From: Bacteroidota bacterium
GTDB lineage: Bacteria; Bacteroidota; Ignavibacteria; UBA10030; UBA8401
DNA length: 64,000 bases
NCBI GenBank assembly: GCA_035506275.1
Contig: DATJPT010000004.1
Location: forward strand, 1 to 64,000
Reading direction: 5' to 3'
Positions 1,777-45,418 of the stretch are shown here, in pieces. A program made the translations under genes and the position numbers. Under the pieces are notes generated by a model. The model was not told where the DNA came from and did not search any database. It saw nothing but the letters and a program-made list of their open reading frames with translations. Each line of letters opens with the position of its first letter. Position 1 is the stretch's first letter.

Positions 1777-3177
1777 TTATTCGATGCGAAAAACGCGAAA
1801 ACCCGTTGCGGGAATTTTGACAGGAATTTCTTTGGATGAAGGGACGGCAGACGTTGTCGCCTGTTTGGTGAAGATGTCGGTCAAGGTGATGCTGCTGCCC
1901 GAAACCGGAACGACCGAAGAAAGATCGAGCGTGCCGGTAAATTCGCTTGCGCCGGCGTTGAAAGCAACGAGCAATCTGCTCGCTCCGGCGATGCGCGTGA
2001 ATGCATAGACGCGCTTTGTCTCGGAAGAAGGAATTCTTGCCATTGCTCCCTCCGTCAACGCAGGTTCTTTCTTCCTGAGGTCGAAAAGCGTCGTGTAAAG
2101 TTCCCTGAACTCTTCGCCGTCCTTCCAGTCGATCGGGATTTTTTCAAACAGCTTCAGCCGCGTCGGGCTGCCGACCTCCTGGCCGTTATACAAAAGCGGA
2201 ATTCCCGGGAGCGTGTTGACGAGCACCGCCGCCAGCTTGGCTCCGCTGACCCCGTATTTGACGACATCGGGAGCGTCCCATGCGTTCTCATCATGGTTCG
2301 AGCTGAATCGCATGCGGAGGGAGCCTCGCGGAAAGCACCGCCGCTCTGTATTGAGCACCGTGTCGAGGGAGAGCACCGATATTTTTCCGCTGATGAGAGG
2401 GCCGAGCAGGCCGTGCGTATTCCATCCGTACGAAGCGTCGAATGCCTTCAGATGATGTTTGGGATACGTTCCCTCGGCGAGCATCATGATCGGTTTGATG
2501 CTGTCGAGTGCGGCGCGCGCGGATTCCCAAAAATCCGTCGGGACCATTTCGGCGACGTCGCAACGGAACCCATCGACGCCGATATCGCGTACCCAATACT
2601 TCATCATGTCGGTCATGTATGTGCGGAGGCCCGGCTGCGAATAGTCGAGGTCGGCAACGTCCGTCCAGTCGGGATTCGGCGGCACGATCTTCCCGGCGCT
2701 GTCTTTTGTGAACCATTCAGGATGTTGTTTGATGAGCTTGCTGTCCCACGCGGTGTGGTTTGCAACCAGGTCGATGATAAGATGGAAACCAAGCTTGTGT
2801 GCGGCGGCGACGAGGCTTTTAAAATCGTCCAGCGTCCCGAATTCCGGGTTGATGCCGTAATAATCCTGCACCGAATACTGGCTGCCGAGAGGTCCCTTGC
2901 GGTTCAGCACGCCGACCGGATGGATCGGCATGATCCACAAAATTGTTACGCCGAGTCTTTTTAGCCCGGGGAGCCCCTTTTCGATGCCGGCGAAAGTTCC
3001 TTCCGGAGAGAACGAGCGGGTATTGATCTCATAAATGATCCCGCTGCGCACCCAGTCTTCGGAGTGCCGGGCTTGCTCGTCGCCGAGCACCTGGCTTCGC
3101 GCCGGGTCGGATGTCTGCGAGTAGGTCAATGAAGGAATTCCAAAAAGAATCAGGAGGATGAAGAAACGTTTATTCAT
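1777..3177 (-). CDS. secreted alpha-amylase family (GH13) glycosidase
   Basis: The protein has 466 residues from the ATG at 3177, chosen because it begins a signal peptide (MNKRFFILLILFGIPSLTYS). A longer frame exists but its extra 35 residues look non-coding. GH13 motifs are visible: DLVANHTAWDS (region I), GFRCDVAEMVP (region II with the nucleophile Asp), the acid Glu in MLAEGTYP, and FSSNHDENAWD (region IV). A small C-terminal beta domain ends in KIPATGFRVFRIE. It should hydrolyse alpha-glucans outside the cytoplasm. It heads a two-gene operon with the acyltransferase downstream. Whether it cuts starch, cyclodextrin or another alpha-glucan is open. Confidence 0.9.
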   Translation of the reverse strand: MNKRFFILLILFGIPSLTYSQTSDPARSQVLGDEQARHSEDWVRSGIIYEINTRSFSPEGTFAGIEKGLPGLKRLGVTILWIMPIHPVGVLNRKGPLGSQYSVQDYYGINPEFGTLDDFKSLVAAAHKLGFHLIIDLVANHTAWDSKLIKQHPEWFTKDSAGKIVPPNPDWTDVADLDYSQPGLRTYMTDMMKYWVRDIGVDGFRCDVAEMVPTDFWESARAALDSIKPIMMLAEGTYPKHHLKAFDASYGWNTHGLLGPLISGKISVLSLDTVLNTERRCFPRGSLRMRFSSNHDENAWDAPDVVKYGVSGAKLAAVLVNTLPGIPLLYNGQEVGSPTRLKLFEKIPIDWKDGEEFRELYTTLFDLRKKEPALTEGAMARIPSSETKRVYAFTRIAGASRLLVAFNAGASEFTGTLDLSSVVPVSGSSITLTDIFTKQATTSAVPSSKEIPVKIPATGFRVFRIE

Positions 3178-20994: not shown

Positions 20995-22110
20995 ATGAAA
21001 TTTTCCGTTACCAGCAGCGAATTGCAGAAAGCGTTATCGAAGACTATCGGTGTTGTGCCCACGCGTTCGACCCTCCCCATCCTTGAAAATCTCCTGTTTG
21101 AAACTGCCAAAAATGTTCTGAAGATCACGGCGACCGACCTCGAGATCTCGATGACCGTTGCCCTGAACGTGAAAGGGACGGAAGACGGCATCATCGCTAT
21201 TCCCGCAAAGAGAATCGTTGATACGATCCGCGCGCTGCCGGATGTTCAGGTGGTTTTTTCGATCGACACGGAAAACAATAAGATCAAAATGGCGACGGAG
21301 AACGGCGAATATTCGCTCACCGGCGAATCGAGCGAGGAATTTCCGACCGTGCCGCAGTTCAAAGGAGACAATGAGATCGGTATGGACGCAGAAACGCTCC
21401 GCTACCTGATCGGCAAAACATCTTTTGCCGTCAGCACGGACGAGCTGCGGCCGGCGATGATGGGTGTTCTCTTTCAGCTTAAGGAGACGGAAATTCGCGC
21501 CGTGGCGACGGACGGACACCGGCTGGTACGCACCATCAACAGAACGTTTGCCTCGCCGAAATTCAAGAAAGACATTGTCATACCGTCGAAGGCATTGGCG
21601 CTCGTGGCAAAGCTGGCGGAAGAGGGAAAAAGCAAAATTTTGGTGAACGATTCTCATATCATGTTCCAGTTCGACGGCACGACGCTGATCTCGCGCCTCA
21701 TCGAGGAAAATTATCCGAATTACGAGACCGTCATTCCTCTCGACAACGACAAGACGCTCGTCGTGAGCAAGGACCAGATGCTCTCGTCCGTGCGGCGCGT
21801 GTCGCTCTACTCGAGCTCGACGACGCATCAGATCCGCATGTCGCTTGCAAAGAACGAGCTGACGATCGCGGCAGAGGATGTCGATTTCGGGAGCGAGGCG
21901 CGGGAAACGATTCCGTGCGAGTACTCGGCCGGCGAGATGGAGATCGGTTTCAACTCGAGCTACGTTGTCGACGTTCTGGCGCACCTTGAATCGGATGAAG
22001 CAGTCTTCAAATTCAGCTCCCCGACGCGGGCGGGGATCGTTTCCCCGCGGCCGCAGCGGGACAAGGAAGACGTCCTCATGCTCATCATGCCGGTGAGGTT
22101 GAACAATTAA
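20995..22110 (+). CDS. dnaN: DNA polymerase III subunit beta (sliding clamp)
   Basis: The protein has 371 residues, the normal length (about 366-380). It has the three-domain clamp layout: MKFSVTSSELQKALSKTIGVVPTRSTLPILENLL at the start and the typical C-terminus EDVLMLIMPVRL, which forms part of the protein-binding pocket. The clamp holds DNA polymerase III on DNA. An SD (aaggag) precedes the ATG. recF follows after 18 bp, the usual dnaN-recF order, but dnaA is not upstream; an esterase gene is. Confidence 0.98.
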   Translation: MKFSVTSSELQKALSKTIGVVPTRSTLPILENLLFETAKNVLKITATDLEISMTVALNVKGTEDGIIAIPAKRIVDTIRALPDVQVVFSIDTENNKIKMATENGEYSLTGESSEEFPTVPQFKGDNEIGMDAETLRYLIGKTSFAVSTDELRPAMMGVLFQLKETEIRAVATDGHRLVRTINRTFASPKFKKDIVIPSKALALVAKLAEEGKSKILVNDSHIMFQFDGTTLISRLIEENYPNYETVIPLDNDKTLVVSKDQMLSSVRRVSLYSSSTTHQIRMSLAKNELTIAAEDVDFGSEARETIPCEYSAGEMEIGFNSSYVVDVLAHLESDEAVFKFSSPTRAGIVSPRPQRDKEDVLMLIMPVRLNN

Positions 22111-22128
22111 GAGGGCCGCACATACCGT

Positions 22129-23274
22129 ATGAAGATCGTGCGCGCACAGCTCCGCCAGTTCCGGAACCACGACTGCACAGAGCTGGACTTTGGGCTGACG
22201 ACGAACGCATTCATGGGGGACAACGGTCACGGTAAAACGAATGTGCTGGAAGCCCTCTCGTTCCTTTGCCTGACAAAAAGTTTTTACGCAAGTTCCGATA
22301 CCACCGCCCTGCAGCAGGGAAAAGAATTTTTCGAGATCAAGGGGACACTGCTCTCCGACGTCGGCGTTGAGCACGACGTTCGCGTTGCTTTCGACTCCCG
22401 GACGAATCAAAAGAAAGTGTTCATCGACGGAAACGAACCCGAGACGTTCTCATCTGTTATCGGGCAGTTCCCGATCGTCGTCCTTTCGCCGGAGAACAAC
22501 AACATCACCTTCGGGACCCCGTCCGACCGGCGGAGGTTCATGGACCTGGTGATCTCGCAGTCGAGCAAGGTCTATGTCGAAGAGATGCTCGAGTACCGGC
22601 GGGCGCTCCGCCAGCGGAACAAGATTTTGTCGGACGTGAACCGTGGGATCGGGAGCGCCGCGTTGCTCGAGCCCTGGGACGAAACGCTGAGCGCTCACGG
22701 GGCCAAAGTTTTTTTGAAGCGGGCCTCTTTTTTTGAGGAATTTGCGCCGTTCATTACGCGCGCGTACGCGGCGGTCGCGCAGGAGACGGAGACACCGGCC
22801 GTCGAGTACGTTCCGCAGATCGCCCTGTCGGCAAATGAGTCGCACGAAGAGGTCGGCAAACGCATCCGGGCGAAGCTCGGAGAGAAACGGCGCGATGAAT
22901 TGAGGATAGGCACAACGCTTGTCGGTCCGCACAGGGACGAAGCGGTGTTCTCGTTGAACGGACTGCAGCTGCGAGCCTTTGCCTCGCAGGGCCAGCACAA
23001 GACGTTTTTGATCGCGCTGAAGATCGCCGAATTCTTCTACCTCAAGGAACGATGCGCGGAAACGCCGGTGATCTTGCTGGACGATGTGTTCACGGAATTG
23101 GACGATACCCGTTCGCGAAAACTGCTCGCGCTCATCGATTCGCTCGGGCAGTCGTTCATCACGACGACGAACGAGCAGGTATTTCACGGCACGATCCGAT
23201 GGGACGATGCGCGGCGGAAATTCTCGATTCTCAACGGCGCCGCGGCCTATGAGCGGCACGAGGCAGCGGCATGA
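22129..23274 (+). CDS. recF: DNA replication and repair protein RecF
   Basis: The protein has 381 residues. It is an SMC/ABC-type ATPase that loads RecA at gaps with RecO and RecR. Motifs: N-terminal RAQLRQFRNHDCTELDF, Walker A GDNGHGKTN (about 30-38), the ABC signature FASQGQHKTFLIALKIAEF and Walker B PVILLDDVFTELD. It overlaps the DUF721 gene by 4 bp (atga), so the pair is coupled. Confidence 0.97.
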   Translation: MKIVRAQLRQFRNHDCTELDFGLTTNAFMGDNGHGKTNVLEALSFLCLTKSFYASSDTTALQQGKEFFEIKGTLLSDVGVEHDVRVAFDSRTNQKKVFIDGNEPETFSSVIGQFPIVVLSPENNNITFGTPSDRRRFMDLVISQSSKVYVEEMLEYRRALRQRNKILSDVNRGIGSAALLEPWDETLSAHGAKVFLKRASFFEEFAPFITRAYAAVAQETETPAVEYVPQIALSANESHEEVGKRIRAKLGEKRRDELRIGTTLVGPHRDEAVFSLNGLQLRAFASQGQHKTFLIALKIAEFFYLKERCAETPVILLDDVFTELDDTRSRKLLALIDSLGQSFITTTNEQVFHGTIRWDDARRKFSILNGAAAYERHEAAA

Positions 23275-23561
23275 CACAGAGCCCCCCTGAAACGCTCGGA
23301 ACCGTGATCGACGGCCTGATGCGTCAGCTCGGGCTGCAGAAGAAGCTGCAGCAATACGACATTGTACCGCTGTGGCCGTCGATCGTCGGCGAGCAGATTG
23401 CCGGACTGACCAGCGTCGATCGAATTGACAAAGATATCCTCATTGTGAAGGTATCGGCGGCGCCGTGGCGCACAGAACTGACCTTTCGTAAAAAAGAAAT
23501 TTTAGACAAAGTTCATGCAGCAATGAACTCGGATTCCATCAAAGACATACGGTTTCGATAA
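23271..23561 (+). CDS. DUF721/DciA-like protein
   Basis: The protein has 96 residues of the DUF721 family (LYDIVPLWPSIVGEQIAGLTSVDRIDKDILIVKV-type fold; here QQYDIVPLWPSIVGEQIAG). DciA members of this family help load or activate the replicative helicase in bacteria without DnaC or DnaI. The window encodes a DnaB but no DnaC/DnaI, which fits that role. The position between recF and gyrB is common. Function as a helicase loader here is inferred from the family. Confidence 0.85.
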   Translation: MTQSPPETLGTVIDGLMRQLGLQKKLQQYDIVPLWPSIVGEQIAGLTSVDRIDKDILIVKVSAAPWRTELTFRKKEILDKVHAAMNSDSIKDIRFR

Positions 23562-23569
23562 ACAATTGA

Positions 23570-25618
<2,049 letters not shown>

Positions 25619-25643
25619 ATTTAACCACTGAGATCATAAAGGC

Positions 25644-28235
25644 ATGGCAACAGCGAACGAGAAGATCGTCCCCGTAGATATCGAAGATGAAATGCGCGGC
25701 TCGTACATCGATTATTCGATGTCCGTCATCGTTGCGCGCGCGCTCCCCGACGTGCGCGACGGATTGAAACCGGTGCACCGCCGCGTGCTGTACGGGATGA
25801 ACGAGCTCGGACTCGCTTCGAACCGGGCCTACAAAAAAAGCGCCCGCGTCGTCGGAGAAGTGCTCGGCAAGTATCATCCGCACGGCGATTCGGCGGTCTA
25901 CGACACCATCGTCCGCATGGCGCAGGATTTTTCGATGCGCTACATGCTGGTCGACGGACAGGGAAATTTCGGCTCGGTCGACGGCGATTCTCCCGCGGCG
26001 ATGCGGTATACCGAGGTCCGCCTTTCGCGCATCTCCGAAGAGATGCTGCGCGACCTGGAAAAAAACACGGTCGCGTTCACTCCGAACTTTGACGACACGC
26101 TCCAGGAACCGTCGGTTCTCCCCGCGCAGATCCCCAACCTTCTCGTCAACGGCGCCAGCGGCATCGCCGTTGGCATGGCAACGAACATTCCGCCGCACAA
26201 CCTCGGCGAGGTGATCGACGGATGCATCGCGTACATCAAGGACACCGCGATCGACAACGAGAAATTGATGAAGATCGTCAAAGCTCCCGACTTCCCGACG
26301 GGCGGGATCATCTACGGGTATGAGGGAGTCAAGGAGGCCTACACCACCGGCCGCGGAAGGATCATCGTCCGTGCAAAGGCGAACATCGAAACCGGCAAGA
26401 ACGACCGTCAGAGCATCATCATCTCCGAAATTCCGTACCAGGTCAACAAAGCAAGCCTGATCGAAAAGATCGCCGAGCTGATGCGCGAGAAGAAGCTCGA
26501 GGACATTTCGGATATCCGCGACGAATCGGACCGCGACGGCCTGCGGATCGTGGTGGACCTGAAGCGCGACGCCAACGCCGCGGTCATCCTCAACAATCTC
26601 TACAAGCATACGCAGATGCAGACCACCTTCGGCGTCATCATGCTTGCGCTGGTCGACGGCCGGCCGCGCATCCTGACGCTGCGGGAGATGATCCAGAAAT
26701 ACATCGAACACCGGAACGAGGTCATTGTCCGCCGAACGAAATTCGACCTCGACGCGGCCGAAGCCCGGGCGCACATCCTCGAAGGCTACATCATCGCGCT
26801 GGACAACATCGATGCCATCATCAAGCTGATCAAGGCATCGAAGGATGTCGAGACGGCGAAGACCGGGTTGATGAAGAAGTTCAAACTGTCGGAGATCCAG
26901 GCTAAAGCGATCCTCGACATGCGCCTGCAGAAACTGACCGGCCTGGAGCGGAAGAAAGTTGAAGACGAGTACCGAGAGACGATCAAGCTGATCACGAAAC
27001 TCAAGGCGATCCTCGCCAGCAAACAGCTCCAGCTCCAGATCATCAGAGAGGAACTGCTTGCCATGCGGGAAAAATACGCCGACCCGCGCCGGACGGAAAT
27101 TGTCTACGACTTCGAAGAATTCCGCATCGAAGACATGATCGCGCAGGAAGAAGTCGTCATTACGATCAGCCATGGCGGCTTCATCAAACGCTTTCCGGTG
27201 AGCGGCTACCGGCGGCAATCGCGCGGAGGAAAAGGGGTCACCGGCGCCGCTTCCCGCGAAGATGATTTCATCGAACATATGTTCATCGCGAGCACGCATA
27301 ATTATATCCTCTTCTTTACGGATCAGGGGCAATGTTACTGGCTGAAAGTTTTTGAGATCCCCGAGGGAGGCCGCGTCGCGAAAGGAAAATCGATCGTCAA
27401 CCTGATCTCCAAAGACCCGGCGGAAAACATCACGGCGTTCGTCAGCGTCAAAGATTTCAGCGAGAAAAATTTTGTTCTGATGGTGACGGAACAGGGGCTC
27501 GTGAAGAAGACCTCGCTCGCCGAGTTCAGCAATCCCCGCAAGAACGGCATCGCAGCGATCTCGCTGAGGAAAAAGGATCTGCTGAAGGACGTCAAGCTGA
27601 CGGACGGAACGAGCGACATCATCATTGGAACGCATGAAGGACTTGCGATCCGGTTCCACGAAGGGGAGGTCCGCGAAATGGGACGGACGGCTGCCGGCGT
27701 CCGTGCTATCCGCCTCGAAAAAGGAGATTTTGTCATCGGCGCTGTTGCGCTGAAACGGGCAAGCACGACGATTCTTATTGCAACGGAAAACGGCTACGGC
27801 AAGCGCTCGGAAGTATCGGGATACCGCGTGAGCCATCGCGGCGGCAAGGGGATCTACACGGTGAACGCCACCGACAAGACGGGAAAAATGATCGCTATCA
27901 AAGAAGTTCTTGAGACCGACGACATCGTTGTCGTGACCTCCGGCGGGATGGTGATCCGCCAGGATGCGACAGAGATCCGGCTGAGCGGACGGAACACGCA
28001 GGGAGTCCGCCTGATCCGATTGGACGGCGGCGACCGCATCGCCGACGTTGCCGTGGTCACGCCCGAGGATGAAGAACAGAGCGATGCGCCGGAAAAAGAG
28101 GAAAAGCCCGCTTCGCCCGACGCCAACGGCAAGGGAGGATCTTCCCCCGAAAAAGCTTCGGCGGACAAGAAAAAGAAGGGGGCGAAAACGAGTCCGCCCA
28201 AAGCAAAGTCCAAACCGGCAAAAAGGAAAAAATGA
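25644..28235 (+). CDS. gyrA: DNA gyrase subunit A
   Basis: The protein has 863 residues. The catalytic Tyr lies in [11 protein letters not shown] (about residue 122). The quinolone-determining region [17 protein letters not shown] keeps the Ser and Asp of sensitive gyrases. The C-terminal beta-pinwheel follows, with GyrA-box sequence RQSRGGKGV near residue 525. The last 50 or so residues form an acidic then Lys-rich tail (KPAKRKK). Its 3' end is repeated in diverged form 124 bp downstream (see the direct repeat at 28211-28384). Confidence 0.98.
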
Positions 28236-38123: not shown

Positions 38124-39545
38124 TTAAAACGGAGTGTCGCCGGACGGAGCCGGTGCATAGTCATCGAACGTCGTCAGCGCCAGATTTTCAAAACGGGCGT
38201 ATTGTTTGATGAACGAGAGCTGAACATCGCCGGTCGGGCCGTTGCGCTGCTTTCCGATGAGAATGTCCGCAATGTTTTCGACGGATTTGTCCCCCTCGAG
38301 CTTGATGCCGTACATTTCCGGCCGATGCACGAAAAGCACGACGTCGGCGTCCTGTTCGATGGCCCCCGATTCACGGAGGTCGGCGAGGACGGGACGCTTA
38401 TCGCTCCGGGCTTCCACGGCGCGGTTCAGCTGCGAAAGCGCAAGAACGGGGATGTTAAGCTCTTTTGCGAGCGCCTTGAGCGAGCGGGAGATCATGGATA
38501 TTTCCTGCTCGCGGCTCTGGGCGGATTTCGGTCCCTGCATCAGCTGAAGATAATCGACGATGACCATGCCGATGTTGTGTTCGACTTTCAGCCGGCGCGC
38601 TTTTGCGCGAAGCTCAAGAATTCCGAGCGCAGGCGTGTCGTCGATAAAGATTTTCGCCGCGTGAAGCTTGCCGATCTGCGTGCTGAGTTTTCGCCACTGG
38701 TCGTCGGGCAGTCTTCCGGTCCGCACGCTGTGAGCATCGACCCGCGCCTCGGCGCAGATCAACCGGAGCACGAGCTGCTGGGAAGACATTTCGAGGCTGA
38801 AGAAGCCGACCGGGATGTTGTGGTCGATGGCCGCATTACGCGCGACGGAAAGAACGAACGCCGTCTTCCCCATGCTGGGCCTGCCTGCGACGATAACGAG
38901 GTCGGACGGCTGGAACCCTCCGGTAAGATTGTCGAGCAAAGAAAACCCCGACGGCGCCCCTGTGACGCCGCTGTGCTTCCCGTGGATGCTTTCCAGCATC
39001 TCCATGGTATTGTAGACCGCGTCCCGCATGGAGAGAAAACTTTTCTTCATCCTCTTTTCGGAGATCTGAAAGATCTTCTGCTCGGCTTCGTCGAGCAGAT
39101 CGAGCGCGTCCTCCGTTTCGTTGAACGCGCGGCTGGTGACCTCGGAGCTCGCTGAAATGAGGTTGCGAAGGAGGGCCTTTTCAAGGACAATTTTTGCGTG
39201 ATACTCGACGTTCGCGGCGGAGGTGACCCGCATGGTAAGCTCGGAAATGTAAACGGGGCCGCCGATCTCATCGAGTTGTCCGCGGCGGCGCAATTCTTCG
39301 ACGATCGTAATCGAGTCAACCGCCTCATTCTTCTCGAAAAGCGCGATCATCGCCTTGAAGATGCTTTGATGGACCGGCTTGTAGAATGCCGTCTCGTCGA
39401 GTATTTCGACCGTCTTCGAGATCGCCTCTTTCTCCAGAAGCATCGCTCCCAATACCGCCATCTCGATATCCATCGCTTGGGGCGGAACCCTTCCTTCCGA
39501 AGTGGTCTCGGTCGGAGAAGGAGTATGTCGGAGAATTTCAGCCAT
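38124..39545 (-). CDS. dnaB: replicative DNA helicase
   Basis: The protein has 473 residues, the usual length, with no intein. The N-terminal domain (QAMDIEMAVLGAMLLEKEAI) is followed by the RecA-like core: Walker A AGRPSMGKTAF (about 217-227), Walker B MVIVDYLQLMQG, then SQLNRAVEARSDKRP and DLRESGAIEQDADVVLFVHR. DnaB unwinds DNA at the replication fork. The DUF721/DciA-like protein encoded at 23271 may be its loader. The gene is followed closely by DUF1460 and preceded by the uracil-DNA glycosylase gene. Confidence 0.98.
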   Translation of the reverse strand: MAEILRHTPSPTETTSEGRVPPQAMDIEMAVLGAMLLEKEAISKTVEILDETAFYKPVHQSIFKAMIALFEKNEAVDSITIVEELRRRGQLDEIGGPVYISELTMRVTSAANVEYHAKIVLEKALLRNLISASSEVTSRAFNETEDALDLLDEAEQKIFQISEKRMKKSFLSMRDAVYNTMEMLESIHGKHSGVTGAPSGFSLLDNLTGGFQPSDLVIVAGRPSMGKTAFVLSVARNAAIDHNIPVGFFSLEMSSQQLVLRLICAEARVDAHSVRTGRLPDDQWRKLSTQIGKLHAAKIFIDDTPALGILELRAKARRLKVEHNIGMVIVDYLQLMQGPKSAQSREQEISMISRSLKALAKELNIPVLALSQLNRAVEARSDKRPVLADLRESGAIEQDADVVLFVHRPEMYGIKLEGDKSVENIADILIGKQRNGPTGDVQLSFIKQYARFENLALTTFDDYAPAPSGDTPF

Positions 39546-39651: not shown

Positions 39652-40419
39652 TTATTTTTTCAGTTCATCATACATTTTTCGCAACCGCTGCACGTCTTCC
39701 CACGTCGGTCGCTTCCAGTTGGGATTGCGGAGCAATGCGGCCGGATGGTACGTTACCATCAACGGAATACCACGGTAGTCGTGCACGTTCGCCCGGAGCG
39801 AGGTCAGCGAATCGGTCGTCTTCAGCAGCACCTGCGCGGAGATGCGTCCCAGGCACAGGATGATCTTCGGCTTAATGATCTCGAGCTGTTTCCAGAGATA
39901 CGGTTCGCATTCGCGGACCTCTTCCGGCAGCGGATCGCGGTTGTTCGGCGGACGGCACTTGAGGATATTGCAGATGTAGACGTCCTCGCGCTTGAAGTGG
40001 ACCGCTTCGAGGATCTTGTTCAGCAGCTGGCCTGCGCGCCCGACAAACGGTTCTCCCTTTGCGTCTTCATCGGCTCCCGGCGCCTCGCCGATCAAAACAA
40101 GTTCTGCGTTTGGATTGCCGACGCCAAAGACGAACTTGGTCCGTGTGGCGCCGAGAGGGCATTTTTGGCATTCGCAGATCATCGAGTTCAAATCGTTCAG
40201 CGACGATGCGTTCGCCCATGGTTCGGCAGGATAACCGCCGAGCGACCTCTCCTTCCCCTCCTTGGAGTGAGCTCCCTGCTCAGCCGACGGATATATGGTA
40301 TTTCCGAAGAGGTCCTGCTCTTGCATAAGGAAGTTTCGAATGCCGGAAATAAGCCGGGAAATTTCTTGAGCTACAGGCTCATCCCCTTGCCGGGGAGATG
40401 AGGGATGAAGATCGGACAT
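39652..40419 (-). CDS. uracil-DNA glycosylase, family 4 (Fe-S)
   Basis: The protein has 255 residues. The first 80 or so are a low-conservation extension. The catalytic domain has the Cys pair [16 protein letters not shown], motif [24 protein letters not shown], two more cysteines around [14 protein letters not shown] for a 4Fe-4S cluster, and the C-terminal motif [12 protein letters not shown]. It removes uracil from DNA. It lies in the coaBC-to-dnaB run, and nfo for the next repair step is nearby. Confidence 0.94.
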
Positions 40420-40481: not shown

Positions 40482-41693
40482 TTAGAACAATGCTGCTACC
40501 CGGTTGAGAATTTCAACCGCAACATCAAACTTCGCCATCTTGGGAAGCTTCTGCGTCCTGCCGTCTTTGCCGATGATGGTGACGACATTTGTATCCGCAC
40601 CGAACGCCGAACCCTCGTCCCGCGTGCTGTTGAGAACGATGAGGTCGAGGTTTTTCTTTCGGAGTTTTTCCGTGGCGTTTTTGACCTCATTCTCTGTTTC
40701 CAGCGCGAACCCGACCAGCACCGCGCCGTTCTTTTTTGCCCCCAGTGTTTGAAGAATATCGGCGTTTTGCCGCAGTTCAAGCGTCAAGCCCCCCGCAGCA
40801 TCGCTCTTTTTGATTTTGTTCGCGGCCGGATTTTTTGGAGCATAATCTGCAACGGCGGCGGACATGATGACCGCGTCCGATTTTTTTGCAAGTTTCGTGA
40901 CCGCCTCGAGCATTTGTGAAGCAGTTTCTACGTCAATGCGGGAAACATTTTTCGGCGTGCCGAGCGATACCGGTCCGCTGATAAGCGTGACCTCGGCTCC
41001 CCGCTGCGCAGCCGCGTTGGCGATCGCGAACCCCATTTTGCCGGAGGACCGGTTGCCGATGAAGCGAACCGGGTCGATCGGTTCATGGGTCGGCCCCGCG
41101 GTGACGAGGATTCTTTTCTTTTTAAGGTCGAGCGGAGTTTTCTCGATGACCGACTCGACAAACGCCATGATCGCCTCGGGCTCCGGCAATCGTCCGGGCC
41201 CGACGAGTCCGCTTGCCAGCTCTCCTTCAACCGGGTTCAGAATATGATGTCCCCGCTCGCGAAGCGTCGTTAAATTTTTCTGTGTTGCCTCGTTGAGGTA
41301 CATGTCGACGTCCATTGCCGGTGCAATGAGCAGCGGCGAGCGGAGAGCGAGCACGGTCGACGAGACGACATCGTCGGCGATGCCGTGGGCGATTTTAGCG
41401 ACGATGTTTGCCGTCGCCGGGGCGATGAGCATCGCATCGGCCCACAGGCCGAGGTTGATGTGCTCGACGCCGGCATGCGTTGACGCGCCGGTGCTTTCCG
41501 GCCATAACGAGGTGATCACCTCTTCCTGCGACAGTGTTGAAAAGGTCAGCGGAGCGACGAACTGCGTTGCCGACCGCGTCATCAGCACACGGACGCCGGC
41601 GCCGGCTCTTTTCATGAGGCGGACAACGGTGCACATCTTGTACGCCGAAATCCCCCCCGTCACGCCGAGCAGTATTTTTTTATTTTTGAGCAC
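40482..41693 (-). CDS. coaBC: bifunctional phosphopantothenoylcysteine decarboxylase/synthetase
   Basis: The protein has 403 residues from a GTG at 41693, chosen because KNKKILLGVTGGISAYK is the family's start; a longer frame would run into rpoZ. The CoaC half has APATANIVAKIAHGIADD (FMN) and APAMDVDMYLNEAT, where Asp replaces the Asn of the usual PAMN motif, as is common in Bacteroidota. The CoaB half has ILVTAGPTHEPIDPVRFIGNRSSGKMG. It makes 4'-phosphopantetheine in coenzyme A synthesis. It belongs to the yicC-gmk-rpoZ-coaBC run. Confidence 0.96.
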   Translation of the reverse strand: MLKNKKILLGVTGGISAYKMCTVVRLMKRAGAGVRVLMTRSATQFVAPLTFSTLSQEEVITSLWPESTGASTHAGVEHINLGLWADAMLIAPATANIVAKIAHGIADDVVSSTVLALRSPLLIAPAMDVDMYLNEATQKNLTTLRERGHHILNPVEGELASGLVGPGRLPEPEAIMAFVESVIEKTPLDLKKKRILVTAGPTHEPIDPVRFIGNRSSGKMGFAIANAAAQRGAEVTLISGPVSLGTPKNVSRIDVETASQMLEAVTKLAKKSDAVIMSAAVADYAPKNPAANKIKKSDAAGGLTLELRQNADILQTLGAKKNGAVLVGFALETENEVKNATEKLRKKNLDLIVLNSTRDEGSAFGADTNVVTIIGKDGRTQKLPKMAKFDVAVEILNRVAALF

Positions 41694-41709
41694 GGGGTCC
41701 TGCGCCTGC

Positions 41710-42036
41710 TTAGGCTGCCGGTTCTTTCTTTTCCTCTTCCTCTTTATACCTGAACTCCAGCTTGTCCGACAACAACTCGCCGATCGCCTGCTCCGTCGGT
41801 TTCGCACGTTTCTCGAACTCGAGGCTGATTTTCAGCTGGTCCGGATTTGCATCCATCTCTTCTTCGTCGCCGTTGGTCGTCGTCGGGATAGCGGCGATCG
41901 TTTCAATGCGTTGATTGAACTCGAGCTTCGTCTCTTCGTTGATCTGGCGCGCACGCTTCGAGAGGACGACGATCGCCTCGTAGACGTTCGCCGCTTTCGA
42001 CTCAAGCGTGTGTATTTCCAGCGGTTTGATTGCCAT
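41710..42036 (-). CDS. rpoZ: RNA polymerase omega subunit
   Basis: The protein has 108 residues. The conserved N-terminal omega fold is seen in KAANVYEAIVVLSKRARQINEETKLEFNQRIE; the C-terminus is a charged low-complexity tail (KYKEEEEKKEPAA type). Omega helps assemble RNA polymerase. It sits 9 bp after gmk and 16 bp before coaBC, the classic order, which supports the call. Confidence 0.92.
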   Translation of the reverse strand: MAIKPLEIHTLESKAANVYEAIVVLSKRARQINEETKLEFNQRIETIAAIPTTTNGDEEEMDANPDQLKISLEFEKRAKPTEQAIGELLSDKLEFRYKEEEEKKEPAA

Positions 42037-42045
42037 GAAATCCTC

Positions 42046-42618
42046 TTATGGTGATTGTGTAAGTTGCTTTAGAATAATTTCTTCGACCTCGCCGATCGCC
42101 CTCGGGAGTTCGTCGTTGACGACCCTGTAGTCAAATTGTTTGCCGATCTCCAGCTCCGTTGCGACGCGGGCCATCCGCTTTTGGAACGCTCGTTCGTCTT
42201 CGGTCTTTCTGTCCCGCAGCCGCTGTTCGAGGACGGCGATGCTCGGCGGCTCGATAAAGATCAGCGCCGACTCCGGGCCGTATAATCTTTTTATCGACAG
42301 CCCTCCTTTGACATCCACATCGAAAACCATGCAACGGCCGTTTGTGAGCGCACGGTCGACCTCGCTCTTCAGCGTGCCGTAGTAATTGCCGTAGATCTGC
42401 TCGTGTTCGACAAGCGCGCCCTTCTGGATCAATCGTTCAAATTCTTCCTTGCGAAGGAAGAAATAGTCTTTGCCGTGCTCCTCGTTTGCGCGCTTCGGCC
42501 TTGTCGTTGCCGAGACCGAGAACTCGAACTCGGGATGGTGCTCCAGAATCGCTTTGACGATCGTTGTCTTGCCGCCGCCGCTCGGGGCCGAGACGACAAA
42601 AAGTTTCGGATTTTTCAT
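42046..42618 (-). CDS. gmk: guanylate kinase
   Basis: The protein has 190 residues. P-loop APSGGGKTTIVKAIL (about 10-24), the GMP-binding SATTRPKRANEEHGKDYFFL and the segment EHEQIYGNYYGTLKSEVD are typical. It converts GMP to GDP. Note the P-loop has GGGKT in place of the usual GAGKS/T. It lies 25 bp after yicC. Confidence 0.97.
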   Translation of the reverse strand: MKNPKLFVVSAPSGGGKTTIVKAILEHHPEFEFSVSATTRPKRANEEHGKDYFFLRKEEFERLIQKGALVEHEQIYGNYYGTLKSEVDRALTNGRCMVFDVDVKGGLSIKRLYGPESALIFIEPPSIAVLEQRLRDRKTEDERAFQKRMARVATELEIGKQFDYRVVNDELPRAIGEVEEIILKQLTQSP

Positions 42619-42643: not shown

Positions 42644-43525
42644 TTATTCGATATTCTGCAGCTGCTCCCGGATCTTTTCCAGCTCTTCCTTGATCGCGAC
42701 GATATGATGCGCGATGCCGGTGTCGTTCGATTTTGATCCGATCGTGTTGGCTTCCCGGTTCATTTCCTGGATCAAAAAATTAAGCTTGCGGCCGGCCGCC
42801 TCGTCGTTTCGGAGGGCGTCGAGAAAAAATTTATTGTGCGAACGGAAGCGGACGCATTCCTCCGTCACATCGAGCTTGTCTGCCAGGAGCGCTATTTCAA
42901 GCTCAAGGCGCTGGGAATCGACAATATTTTTGTCTCCCAGCAATTGCGCAATGCGTTCGTGCAGGCGCGTACGCTCCTCGGGTATCCTTTCCCTGGAACT
43001 TGCTTCAATGCTCTCCAGCCGCTGCTGGATCTGCCCGACGCGGGCGATCATGTCTTTGGAGATTTCTTCCCCCTCGTTGACCCGCATCGTTTGGAGCTCT
43101 TTGAGGGCGCGCTGCAGCGCGTCCTGGAATGCTTCCCATTCGAAGCTCGCCGCCTCTTCATCGACCCCTCCTTCAAAGATCTCCGAGAATTTCAGGATGT
43201 GGTCGAGGCCGACTTTTTCTTTGAGCTTGAGCGATTTGCGAAGCTGGCTCAGCAGTTTATAGTACGATCTCGCCGCGGCGACATTGACGGTGAGCGGGAA
43301 CTTGCCGTTCGCATCGTTCTGAAGCGTTGCTGTGAGCGAAATTTTTCCACGCACCACTTTTGCCCGGACGACCTCCTTGATCTCGCTTTCCCGCAGCGAA
43401 AGCGAACGGGGGAGACGAGCATTCAATTCAAAAAAACGGCTGTTGACGCTTCTCAGTTCTACCAGCGCGGATACGCCATTGAGAGAACACTCCCCCCTGC
43501 CGTATCCTGTCATACTTTGGATCAT
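42644..43525 (-). CDS. YicC family endoribonuclease
   Basis: The protein has 293 residues. The family start IQSMTGYGRGE and the C-terminal block EMNREANTIGSKSNDTGIAHHIVAIKEELEKIREQLQNIE are both clear, with the DUF1732 region ERIPEERTRLHERIAQLLGD between. YicC proteins are endoribonucleases involved in RNA decay. It heads the operon yicC-gmk-rpoZ-coaBC, with a promoter at 43561-43589. The ATG at 43513 is an alternative start. Confidence 0.93.
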   Translation of the reverse strand: MIQSMTGYGRGECSLNGVSALVELRSVNSRFFELNARLPRSLSLRESEIKEVVRAKVVRGKISLTATLQNDANGKFPLTVNVAAARSYYKLLSQLRKSLKLKEKVGLDHILKFSEIFEGGVDEEAASFEWEAFQDALQRALKELQTMRVNEGEEISKDMIARVGQIQQRLESIEASSRERIPEERTRLHERIAQLLGDKNIVDSQRLELEIALLADKLDVTEECVRFRSHNKFFLDALRNDEAAGRKLNFLIQEMNREANTIGSKSNDTGIAHHIVAIKEELEKIREQLQNIE

Positions 43526-43560
43526 CTGCGTCCGGGCGATAAATTTGTGGTTTCACACTC

Positions 43561-43589
43561 AAAGTACGAAAAATCGCTCTGGCAGGCAA
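43561..43589 (-). promoter_or_regulatory. sigma70-like promoter for the yicC-gmk-rpoZ-coaBC operon
   Basis: Read on the minus strand, TTGCCT (43589-43584) and TACTTT (43566-43561) are 17 bp apart. The predicted start, about 43554, lies 29 nt before the yicC ATG. Confidence 0.6.
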
Positions 43590-43619
43590 GGAAAAGTTCT
43601 CGACAGATTAAGCACGTAC

Positions 43620-43693
43620 TTATCCACAAGTTATTCAGCACAATTTTGCTTTTGCAGCGTTTTTTGATATATTTTTGCACAACATGTGGATAA
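43620..43693. promoter_or_regulatory. inverted pair of perfect DnaA boxes around an AT-rich core
   Basis: TTATCCACA at 43620-43628 and its exact complement TGTGGATAA at 43685-43693 match the strict DnaA-box consensus. The 56 bp between them contain 17 G or C (about 30 percent, counted by eye), far below the surrounding DNA. The site lies at the divergence of a minus-strand and a plus-strand gene run and overlaps the NFACT promoter. It could be a DnaA-regulated promoter, a DnaA-titration site or part of an origin. Confidence 0.65.
43646..43673 (+). promoter_or_regulatory. promoter for the RqcH/NFACT gene, inside the DnaA-box pair
   Basis: TTGCTT at 43646-43651 and TATATT at 43668-43673 have a 16-bp spacer. 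The predicted start, about 43680, means that the second DnaA box (43685-43693) is in the 5' leader, just before the ATG at 43700. Confidence 0.55.
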
Positions 43694-43699
43694 CCGGAA

Positions 43700-45418
43700 A
43701 TGCTCAGTAATTACTTTACCCTTCTCAATGTATCTCGGTTGATCCACCAGCAAAGTGTCGGCCGCCGCATCTCCGAAATTTACTCACAGCACAAACAACA
43801 ACTGTGCATTGCCGTTGACGTACCGACGGTCACGACGATCATCGTCTCATGCGTGCCGTCCGAAAATTATCTCTCTGCTCGTGAAGGAAATTTCCGAGCG
43901 CGAAAAAACTCGATCGATCTATTTCCGGATGCGTCGGGAAAAAAAATACTCGACGTCGCATGCGATCATGACGATAGAATTATTTTCATCGTTCTTGAAG
44001 GAGGCCTGAGCTTGATGTGCGAGATGTTCGGCTCCCGTGCCAACGTCCTTTTGTTGAAGGAAGAGAAGGCATCATCCGCCGCATCCGAAATCGTCATCGA
44101 TGCGTTCTTGAAAAAAAAAGAGCTGGCGGGGAACCGGATCAACCGCCGGGAAGCGCATGGAACGCCGGAATATCAGCGGTTCATGAAAGACGAGAATACC
44201 TTTGTCGAAGCTCTCCGCACGGCGAACGGAGAGAGCATTTTCCAATCCTTGAAAAGAGGGGTGCCGGTACTCGGTTCGACGCTGGCAAAAGAAATCCTGT
44301 TCAGGGCGAACGTTGCCCCCTCCGCATCCTTGTCTCTGGTCACAGACCGTGAACTGAAAAAAGTGTTTAGTGAATCATCCAGGATCATTGAAGATGCCGC
44401 CGCACCAACGGCAAGCGGACAGGCGCGAATCTATTACGAACATGAAGCTCCGGTCTGCTTTTCGCTGATCCCCTTGCGGAGCTATGAAGAGCACGAATAT
44501 GAATCGTTTCCGACCGTCACGGCGGCCATTCAGCGGTTTGTAGGCACGGTGAGGGCCTCATCGGCGTTCATCAAAGAGAAGGAGGAGATCTCCTCCTGGC
44601 TCGAAAAGGAAGAGAAAAAAGCGGCGCAAACGCAGGCAAAAATCACCATCGATCTTGCGGAACAGGACCGGAGAAAAGAGTACGAATTGTTCGGGAAGCT
44701 GATCACGGCACATCTGCACGAGCTCCGCAAAGGGATGAAAACTGCGGCGCTGGAGGATACGGTATCATTCGACTCGTCTTCCTCAAAAATTTCCGTTCCG
44801 CTGGACCCGTCGTTAAGTCCCGCAGGAAATGCCGAACGGTATTTTGAGAAAGCGAAGAAAGCAAAAGAAGCGCATCTGGAATCTCTCACCCGGTCGAAAA
44901 GTCTTGAGGGACGCTTGTCAAGCCTGCGGATGTTGATTGCCGAGGTGTCGGAGATTTCCTCGGGCGAATCGCTGAAGGAATTTCATCAGACGTACAAAAC
45001 GTATCTTCAACGGCTTGGCTATGCGACAGCAAAAGAAAAAGAGAACCTTCCCCCGTTTCGCATTTTCACGGTCGAAGGGGGGTTTCAGGTGCTTGCGGGA
45101 AAAAGCAGCGAGAACAACGATATGCTGACGACGAAGTATGCAAAGCCCGACGACCTCTGGTTCCATTGCCGCGGCTCCAGCGGTTCTCATGTCGTGTTAA
45201 AGGTGCACAGCGCGCACGGCGAGCCGTCTAAAACGGCTATCCATCAGGCGGCGTCGATCGCGGCATACTACAGCAAAATGAAAAATGCCTCCTCGGTTCC
45301 GGTTGCCATGGCGGAAAAGAAATTCGTCCGGAAACCGAAAGGGGCGCCGGCCGGGACGGTAATTCTCGAAAGAGAAAAAGTCATTTTCGTCGAGCCGAAA
45401 CTTCCGTTTGCGGTGTAG
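43700..45418 (+). CDS. NFACT/RqcH-family ribosome quality control protein
   Basis: The protein has 572 residues. The NFACT-N domain starts MLSNYFTLLNVSRLIHQQSVGRRISEIY and holds the DR motif (CDHDDRIIFIV, near residues 89-99) needed for tRNA binding in RqcH. A long charged coiled-coil middle follows (about 285-430), then NFACT-R: KYAKPDDLWFHCRGSSGSHVVLK (about 475-497) and a Lys-rich end. RqcH/Rqc2 proteins recruit tRNA-Ala and add alanine tails to stalled nascent chains on 50S subunits. The gene is followed after 15 bp by a response-regulator gene. Confidence 0.9.
   Translation: MLSNYFTLLNVSRLIHQQSVGRRISEIYSQHKQQLCIAVDVPTVTTIIVSCVPSENYLSAREGNFRARKNSIDLFPDASGKKILDVACDHDDRIIFIVLEGGLSLMCEMFGSRANVLLLKEEKASSAASEIVIDAFLKKKELAGNRINRREAHGTPEYQRFMKDENTFVEALRTANGESIFQSLKRGVPVLGSTLAKEILFRANVAPSASLSLVTDRELKKVFSESSRIIEDAAAPTASGQARIYYEHEAPVCFSLIPLRSYEEHEYESFPTVTAAIQRFVGTVRASSAFIKEKEEISSWLEKEEKKAAQTQAKITIDLAEQDRRKEYELFGKLITAHLHELRKGMKTAALEDTVSFDSSSSKISVPLDPSLSPAGNAERYFEKAKKAKEAHLESLTRSKSLEGRLSSLRMLIAEVSEISSGESLKEFHQTYKTYLQRLGYATAKEKENLPPFRIFTVEGGFQVLAGKSSENNDMLTTKYAKPDDLWFHCRGSSGSHVVLKVHSAHGEPSKTAIHQAASIAAYYSKMKNASSVPVAMAEKKFVRKPKGAPAGTVILEREKVIFVEPKLPFAV

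Follow-up and report, generated by a model that had tools for sequence, protein, structure and literature searches.

Conserved double DnaA boxes between yicC and rqcH as a predicted DnaA-binding regulatory element in Ignavibacteria-type Bacteroidota

Introduction

Most of what is known about DnaA targets outside the replication origin comes from a few model bacteria. In Escherichia coli, the promoters of the DnaA regulon include those of nrdA, polA, purH, nrdD, rne and rpoH, and in vivo binding by DnaA is almost confined to double boxes with gaps of 2-3 bp, often a perfect box together with a weak one (PMC11317965). In Bacillus subtilis, DnaA activates sda and represses ywlC, yyzF-yydD and trmE-noc (PMC4447404). 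Like these B. subtilis targets, the locus described here carries DnaA boxes away from oriC as putative promoter regulatory sites; the target genes differ, and a text search of PMC4447404 found no ylo genes (the yicC/rqcH region). The order in which we found these boxes to be conserved consists largely of uncultured bacteria, and it is solely from the conservation of this element that a DnaA target is predicted in Ignavibacteria-type Bacteroidota.

Results

The window is a 64,000-nucleotide stretch of contig C4 in a Bacteroidota genome of 3.7 Mb and 20 contigs. Its only two matches to TTATNCACA are exact, inverted copies of TTATCCACA, box 1 at 43620-43628 (plus strand) and box 2 at 43685-43693 (minus strand). 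Box 2 coincides with the predicted start of rqcH transcription and is 6 bp upstream of the ATG of that gene. A sequence-only reading of this DNA had reported the pair with a spacer of 56 bp and 17 G or C, and our recount agrees; only 0.3% of the 56-bp windows here are equally AT-rich. Within the window, 0.47 matches were expected and at least two occurred in 7 of 100 shuffles. The genome has 17 perfect TTATCCACA copies; at that number, the expectation for pairs within 100 bp is about 0.007. The two perfect boxes are real and far from chance.

Each perfect box is flanked by weaker boxes that had been overlooked in that reading, each matching at 7 of 9 positions. Box 1, the core of the array, has its double-box partner TTAAGCACG (43608-43616, plus strand; 7/9 to TTATNCACA) 3 bp away. 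A third array member, TTCTCGACA (43597-43605, plus strand), stands at an offset of -23 that is enriched across species, and on the rqcH side of box 1, after a gap of 2 bp, comes TTATTCAGC (43631-43639, plus strand), which is also present in the nearest genera. Together these boxes give TTCTCGACA-ga-TTAAGCACG-tac-TTATCCACA-ag-TTATTCAGC. The partner of box 2, TTGTGCAAA (43674-43682, minus strand), is 2 bp from it, overlaps the rqcH -7 element and is not conserved in the sister species. Given these weaker neighbours 2-3 bp off, boxes 1 and 2 are both double DnaA boxes. Among the 17 perfect boxes of the genome, a partner reaches at least 7/9 only at these two, and the pattern TTATCCACAN{2,3}TTNTNCA matches exactly twice in the whole 3.7 Mb, at boxes 1 and 2.

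As had been described, genes diverge here, with seven minus-strand genes to the left and a plus-strand run starting with rqcH and a response regulator to the right; the proposed gene identities are borne out by Pfam matches. The leftward row begins with yicC of the endoribonuclease YicC family (42644-43525; PF03755, PF08340). It is followed on the same minus strand, with mostly short gaps, by gmk (guanylate kinase; 42046-42618; PF00625), rpoZ (RNA polymerase omega; 41710-42036; PF01192), coaBC, also called dfp (40482-41807, with a true start probably later than the ORF start; PF04127, PF02441), a uracil-DNA glycosylase (UDG) family gene (39652-40419; PF03167) and dnaB (replicative helicase; 38124-39545; PF03796, PF00772). 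The seventh minus-strand gene is AmiA-like. On the plus strand, rqcH encodes an NFACT family protein of ribosome quality control (43700-45418; PF05833, PF05670); some rqcH matches contain an in-frame stop, which in the one case checked is the normal gene end. In all 53 genomes with both genes on one contig, dnaB lies downstream of yicC on the same strand, at most 8 kb away in 51 of them. We infer that the row from yicC to dnaB is one transcript.

A plain sigma-70 scan found no relevant promoter at yicC/rqcH, and the promoters were therefore predicted by consensus only, with the Bacteroidota-type TTG...TAnnTTTG pattern. The predicted yicC promoter (43560-43591, minus strand) has a -33 TTG within 43585-43591 and a -7 TACTTTG at 43560-43566, and its spacing is conserved in almost all relatives with box 1. 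For rqcH, the predicted promoter (43642-43677, plus strand) consists of a -33 TTTTG and a -7 TATTTTTG at 43670-43677. The array spans about -44 to -86 relative to the predicted yicC start, with box 1 itself at about -67 to -75; activators typically bind at such a position. At rqcH, box 2 and its partner span about -10 to +10 relative to the predicted start, where bound proteins typically repress.

We then compared the yicC upstream regions of 59 species from six families of the order, in which TTATCCACA was sought within 250 bp. The named relatives closest to this genome are metagenome genomes of Ignavibacteria-type Bacteroidota. The comparison in relatives, proposed as a check in the sequence-only reading, favours the boxes: exact TTATCCACA stands upstream of yicC in 32 of the 59 species (shuffles: mean 0.13, maximum 1; control strings: 0-3), although species counts and helical phasing share ancestry and are not phylogenetically independent. 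By family, the counts are 18/22 (f1), 6/10 (f6), 5/10 (f5), 3/10 (f3), 0/5 (f2) and 0/2 (f4). The remainder of the spacer has diverged while the boxes stay conserved across several families. Families f2 and f4 have no boxes, though most f2 members retain the rqcH-yicC adjacency, and none were found at the outgroup loci (Chlorobia, KSB1, Zixibacteria, Calditrichaeota and Clostridia), which points to lineage-specific control.

Once box variants were allowed, 39 sites could be anchored. In 37 of these 39 sites, box 1 is preceded by a partner box, defined as at least 6/9 to TTATNCACA in the same orientation, whose start lies 11 or 12 bp ahead of that of box 1 (a gap of 2-3 bp); the average at control offsets is 7%. 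A third box is often present at -21 or -23. A family-wide left-hand double-box pattern proved too strict, with five matches in 22 genomes, four of them at yicC. The distance between box 1 and box 2 is 53-55, 64-67, 76 or 97 bp, or 63-64 bp with degenerate second boxes, and its periodicity near 10.5-11 bp has a p of about 5e-5 (one genome per genus, null with ±10 bp jitter). Box 1 lies 28-32, 41 or 59-61 bp from the yicC -33 TTG. Box-box and box-promoter distances both shift by about whole helical turns, the steps expected for proteins bound so as to keep to one DNA face.

Genomes in which yicC and rqcH are separated bear on the question of which gene is the target. In 11 f1 genomes (genera g3, g4, g5 and g7), rqcH has moved elsewhere. 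The relocated rqcH has no boxes in any of them, and box 1 stays with yicC in 10 of the 11, the exception being G005. The main target is thus probably the yicC-gmk-rpoZ-coaBC-UDG-dnaB row, to which rqcH is added where adjacent. Of 60 genomes, 11 have an exact inverted pair spaced by 42-68 bp, none has more than one, and each of these pairs lies at yicC/rqcH or at rqcH. In G039 (L178), the exact pair stands before rqcH, about 14 kb from a yicC without boxes, and in G053 it stands in front of rqcH at a contig end. These pairs at rqcH, together with box 1 at yicC, suggest that both genes can be targets, of which yicC is the more constant. The earlier idea that DnaA regulates a ribosome-rescue gene therefore holds in part: conservation, double boxes and helical phasing speak for regulation, and the main target appears to be the yicC row rather than rqcH. 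In genus g3 (L038, L042, L043, L065, L068, L072, L074 and L077), a degenerate inverted box 2, GTTGATAAC, has been conserved at about 64 bp past box 1 although rqcH is no longer adjacent; in one named relative (L102), yicC and the start of the next divergent gene are about 460 bp apart.

The replication origin lies next to dnaA on contig C7, not in the window. There, dnaA is located beside rpmH-rnpA-yidC, and seven TTATN(C/A)ACA boxes, almost all in one orientation, fall within 244 bp upstream of dnaA, facing rpmH-rnpA-yidC (predicted oriC, G000:C7:119972-120215; L001 about 2892-3135). Relatives share this layout, and all 30 dnaA loci examined have boxes upstream, mostly several and at similar positions. 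Across the order, the boxes of the predicted oriC (L184-L213) are mostly TTATCAACA and TTATCCACA, again almost all in one orientation. GC skew is noisy in this group and serves only as support for the box evidence. The cumulative skew of C7 is lowest at the dnaA end, whereas that of C4 rises weakly, so that the skew check suggested in the sequence-only reading gave no minimum at 43.6 kb. Two relatives have dnaA and yicC on one contig; their skew minima lie 17 kb from dnaA versus 77 kb from yicC (G003) and 59 kb versus 140 kb (G023). The same reading had noted a dnaN-gyrA group without dnaA, and we indeed found dnaN-recF-gyrB-gyrA at 20995-28235, about 20 kb from the boxes, with dnaA separated to its rpmH-rnpA-yidC setting on the other contig. 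An origin beside dnaN-gyrA was rejected, as no DnaA-box cluster is present there. An origin at the yicC/rqcH boxes was rejected as well, given dnaA and the seven-box cluster on C7 and the lack of a skew minimum on C4.

Discussion

We consider it probable that the boxes form a conserved regulatory element to which DnaA binds, placed within the divergent promoter of the yicC-gmk-rpoZ-coaBC-UDG-dnaB row and rqcH. The locus has TTATNCACA boxes in a promoter region, doubled at 2-3 bp and held at a conserved, phased position. DnaA is the likely binder, because the box words are identical to those at the dnaA origins of these species and the geometry is that of double boxes; domain IV of the DnaA protein contains the usual GGRDHSTVIHAY stretch. 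DnaA, probably ATP-bound, would begin to assemble at box 1 and spread through the same-facing array in the direction of the yicC promoter; bound on one helix face, it would tune transcription of yicC and of the genes that follow, with activation the more likely effect. The second double box, inverted and in phase, would cover the rqcH start, where bound DnaA would block transcription. The assemblies at boxes 1 and 2 may contact each other. DnaA activity, and hence the replication cycle, would in this way be coupled to genes of nucleotide supply, RNA turnover, DNA repair and the helicase. The sign of regulation at yicC and rqcH is a guess. More speculatively, and with the odds against it, the two inverted, phased assemblies could act as a switch that turns the yicC-to-dnaB row on and rqcH off in opposite phases of the replication cycle; if true, it would link DnaA directly to ribosome rescue and helicase supply, a circuit without earlier description.

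Other explanations have to be weighed against this proposal. An unlikely one, though ahead of the others, is that the locus modulates or titrates DnaA, in the manner of DARS, datA or the DnaA-box clusters of Bacillus, and acts on replication timing from within a promoter by happenstance. E. coli DARS1/2 and datA have the same type of double box beside genes, and g3 keeps the inverted pair with a degenerate box 2 (GTTGATAA at +63/64) after rqcH has left. Against this, the boxes keep their distances in phase with the yicC -33 element, box 2 falls on the rqcH start, and where yicC and rqcH are apart in G039, the pair is found at the rqcH promoter; for titration, the boxes are also few. We regard it as improbable that a different regulator reads a motif resembling the DnaA box. 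The words TTATCCACA, TTATCAACA and TTATTCACA also make up the dnaA-linked origin of the same genomes, and the tandem arrangement at 2-3 bp is the one that DnaA itself uses.

The relocated origin put forward in the sequence-only reading, or a second origin at the boxes, ranks below both and is very improbable. Inverted perfect boxes, an AT-rich spacer, divergent genes and dnaN-gyrA about 20 kb off all fit an origin, yet the classical rpmH/dnaA cluster, with seven boxes in 244 bp, is on another contig, and boxes precede dnaA in 30/30 loci. No box cluster beside dnaA exists at yicC/rqcH; the skew minimum is at the dnaA end of C7, with none on C4 at 43.6 kb, and the minima of G003 and G023 are nearer to dnaA. 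Chance, or sequence left over without function, has next to no weight: two boxes in 64 kb are only mildly unusual (7/100 shuffles), but conservation of the boxes across several families, where the rest of the spacer has diverged, already refutes this reading.

The predicted element would connect the initiator with a row that includes the genes for guanylate kinase and the replicative helicase, and with a gene of ribosome quality control. The literature searched, which included few subscription papers and is weak evidence in this respect, gave no DnaA boxes linked to rqcH or yicC, and the published E. coli target table does not contain yicC, gmk, dnaB or rqcH (PMC11317965). Like the oriC of the dnaA-rpmH type, the locus has DnaA boxes beside an AT-rich stretch, whereas the species' own oriC lies elsewhere, beside dnaA, with more boxes in one orientation. 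It shares double DnaA boxes in intergenic DNA with DARS1, DARS2 and datA, a class marked also by an IHF or Fis site and by an influence on the nucleotide state of DnaA, and differs from them in that its box positions are tied to promoters. The E. coli regulon is the closest in kind. There, too, a perfect or near-perfect TTATCCACA is accompanied at 2-3 bp by a weaker box of the same orientation. The genes downstream serve nucleotide synthesis, replication and RNA turnover, and rne, like yicC here, encodes an endoribonuclease. This suggests that the E. coli double-box rule holds in sequence far outside the proteobacteria. The best reading of the yicC/rqcH site is thus a new, putatively DnaA-controlled divergent promoter of an already known kind, which differs from the E. 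coli regulon in that its regulation is predicted and in that a single divergent promoter holds two inverted double boxes.
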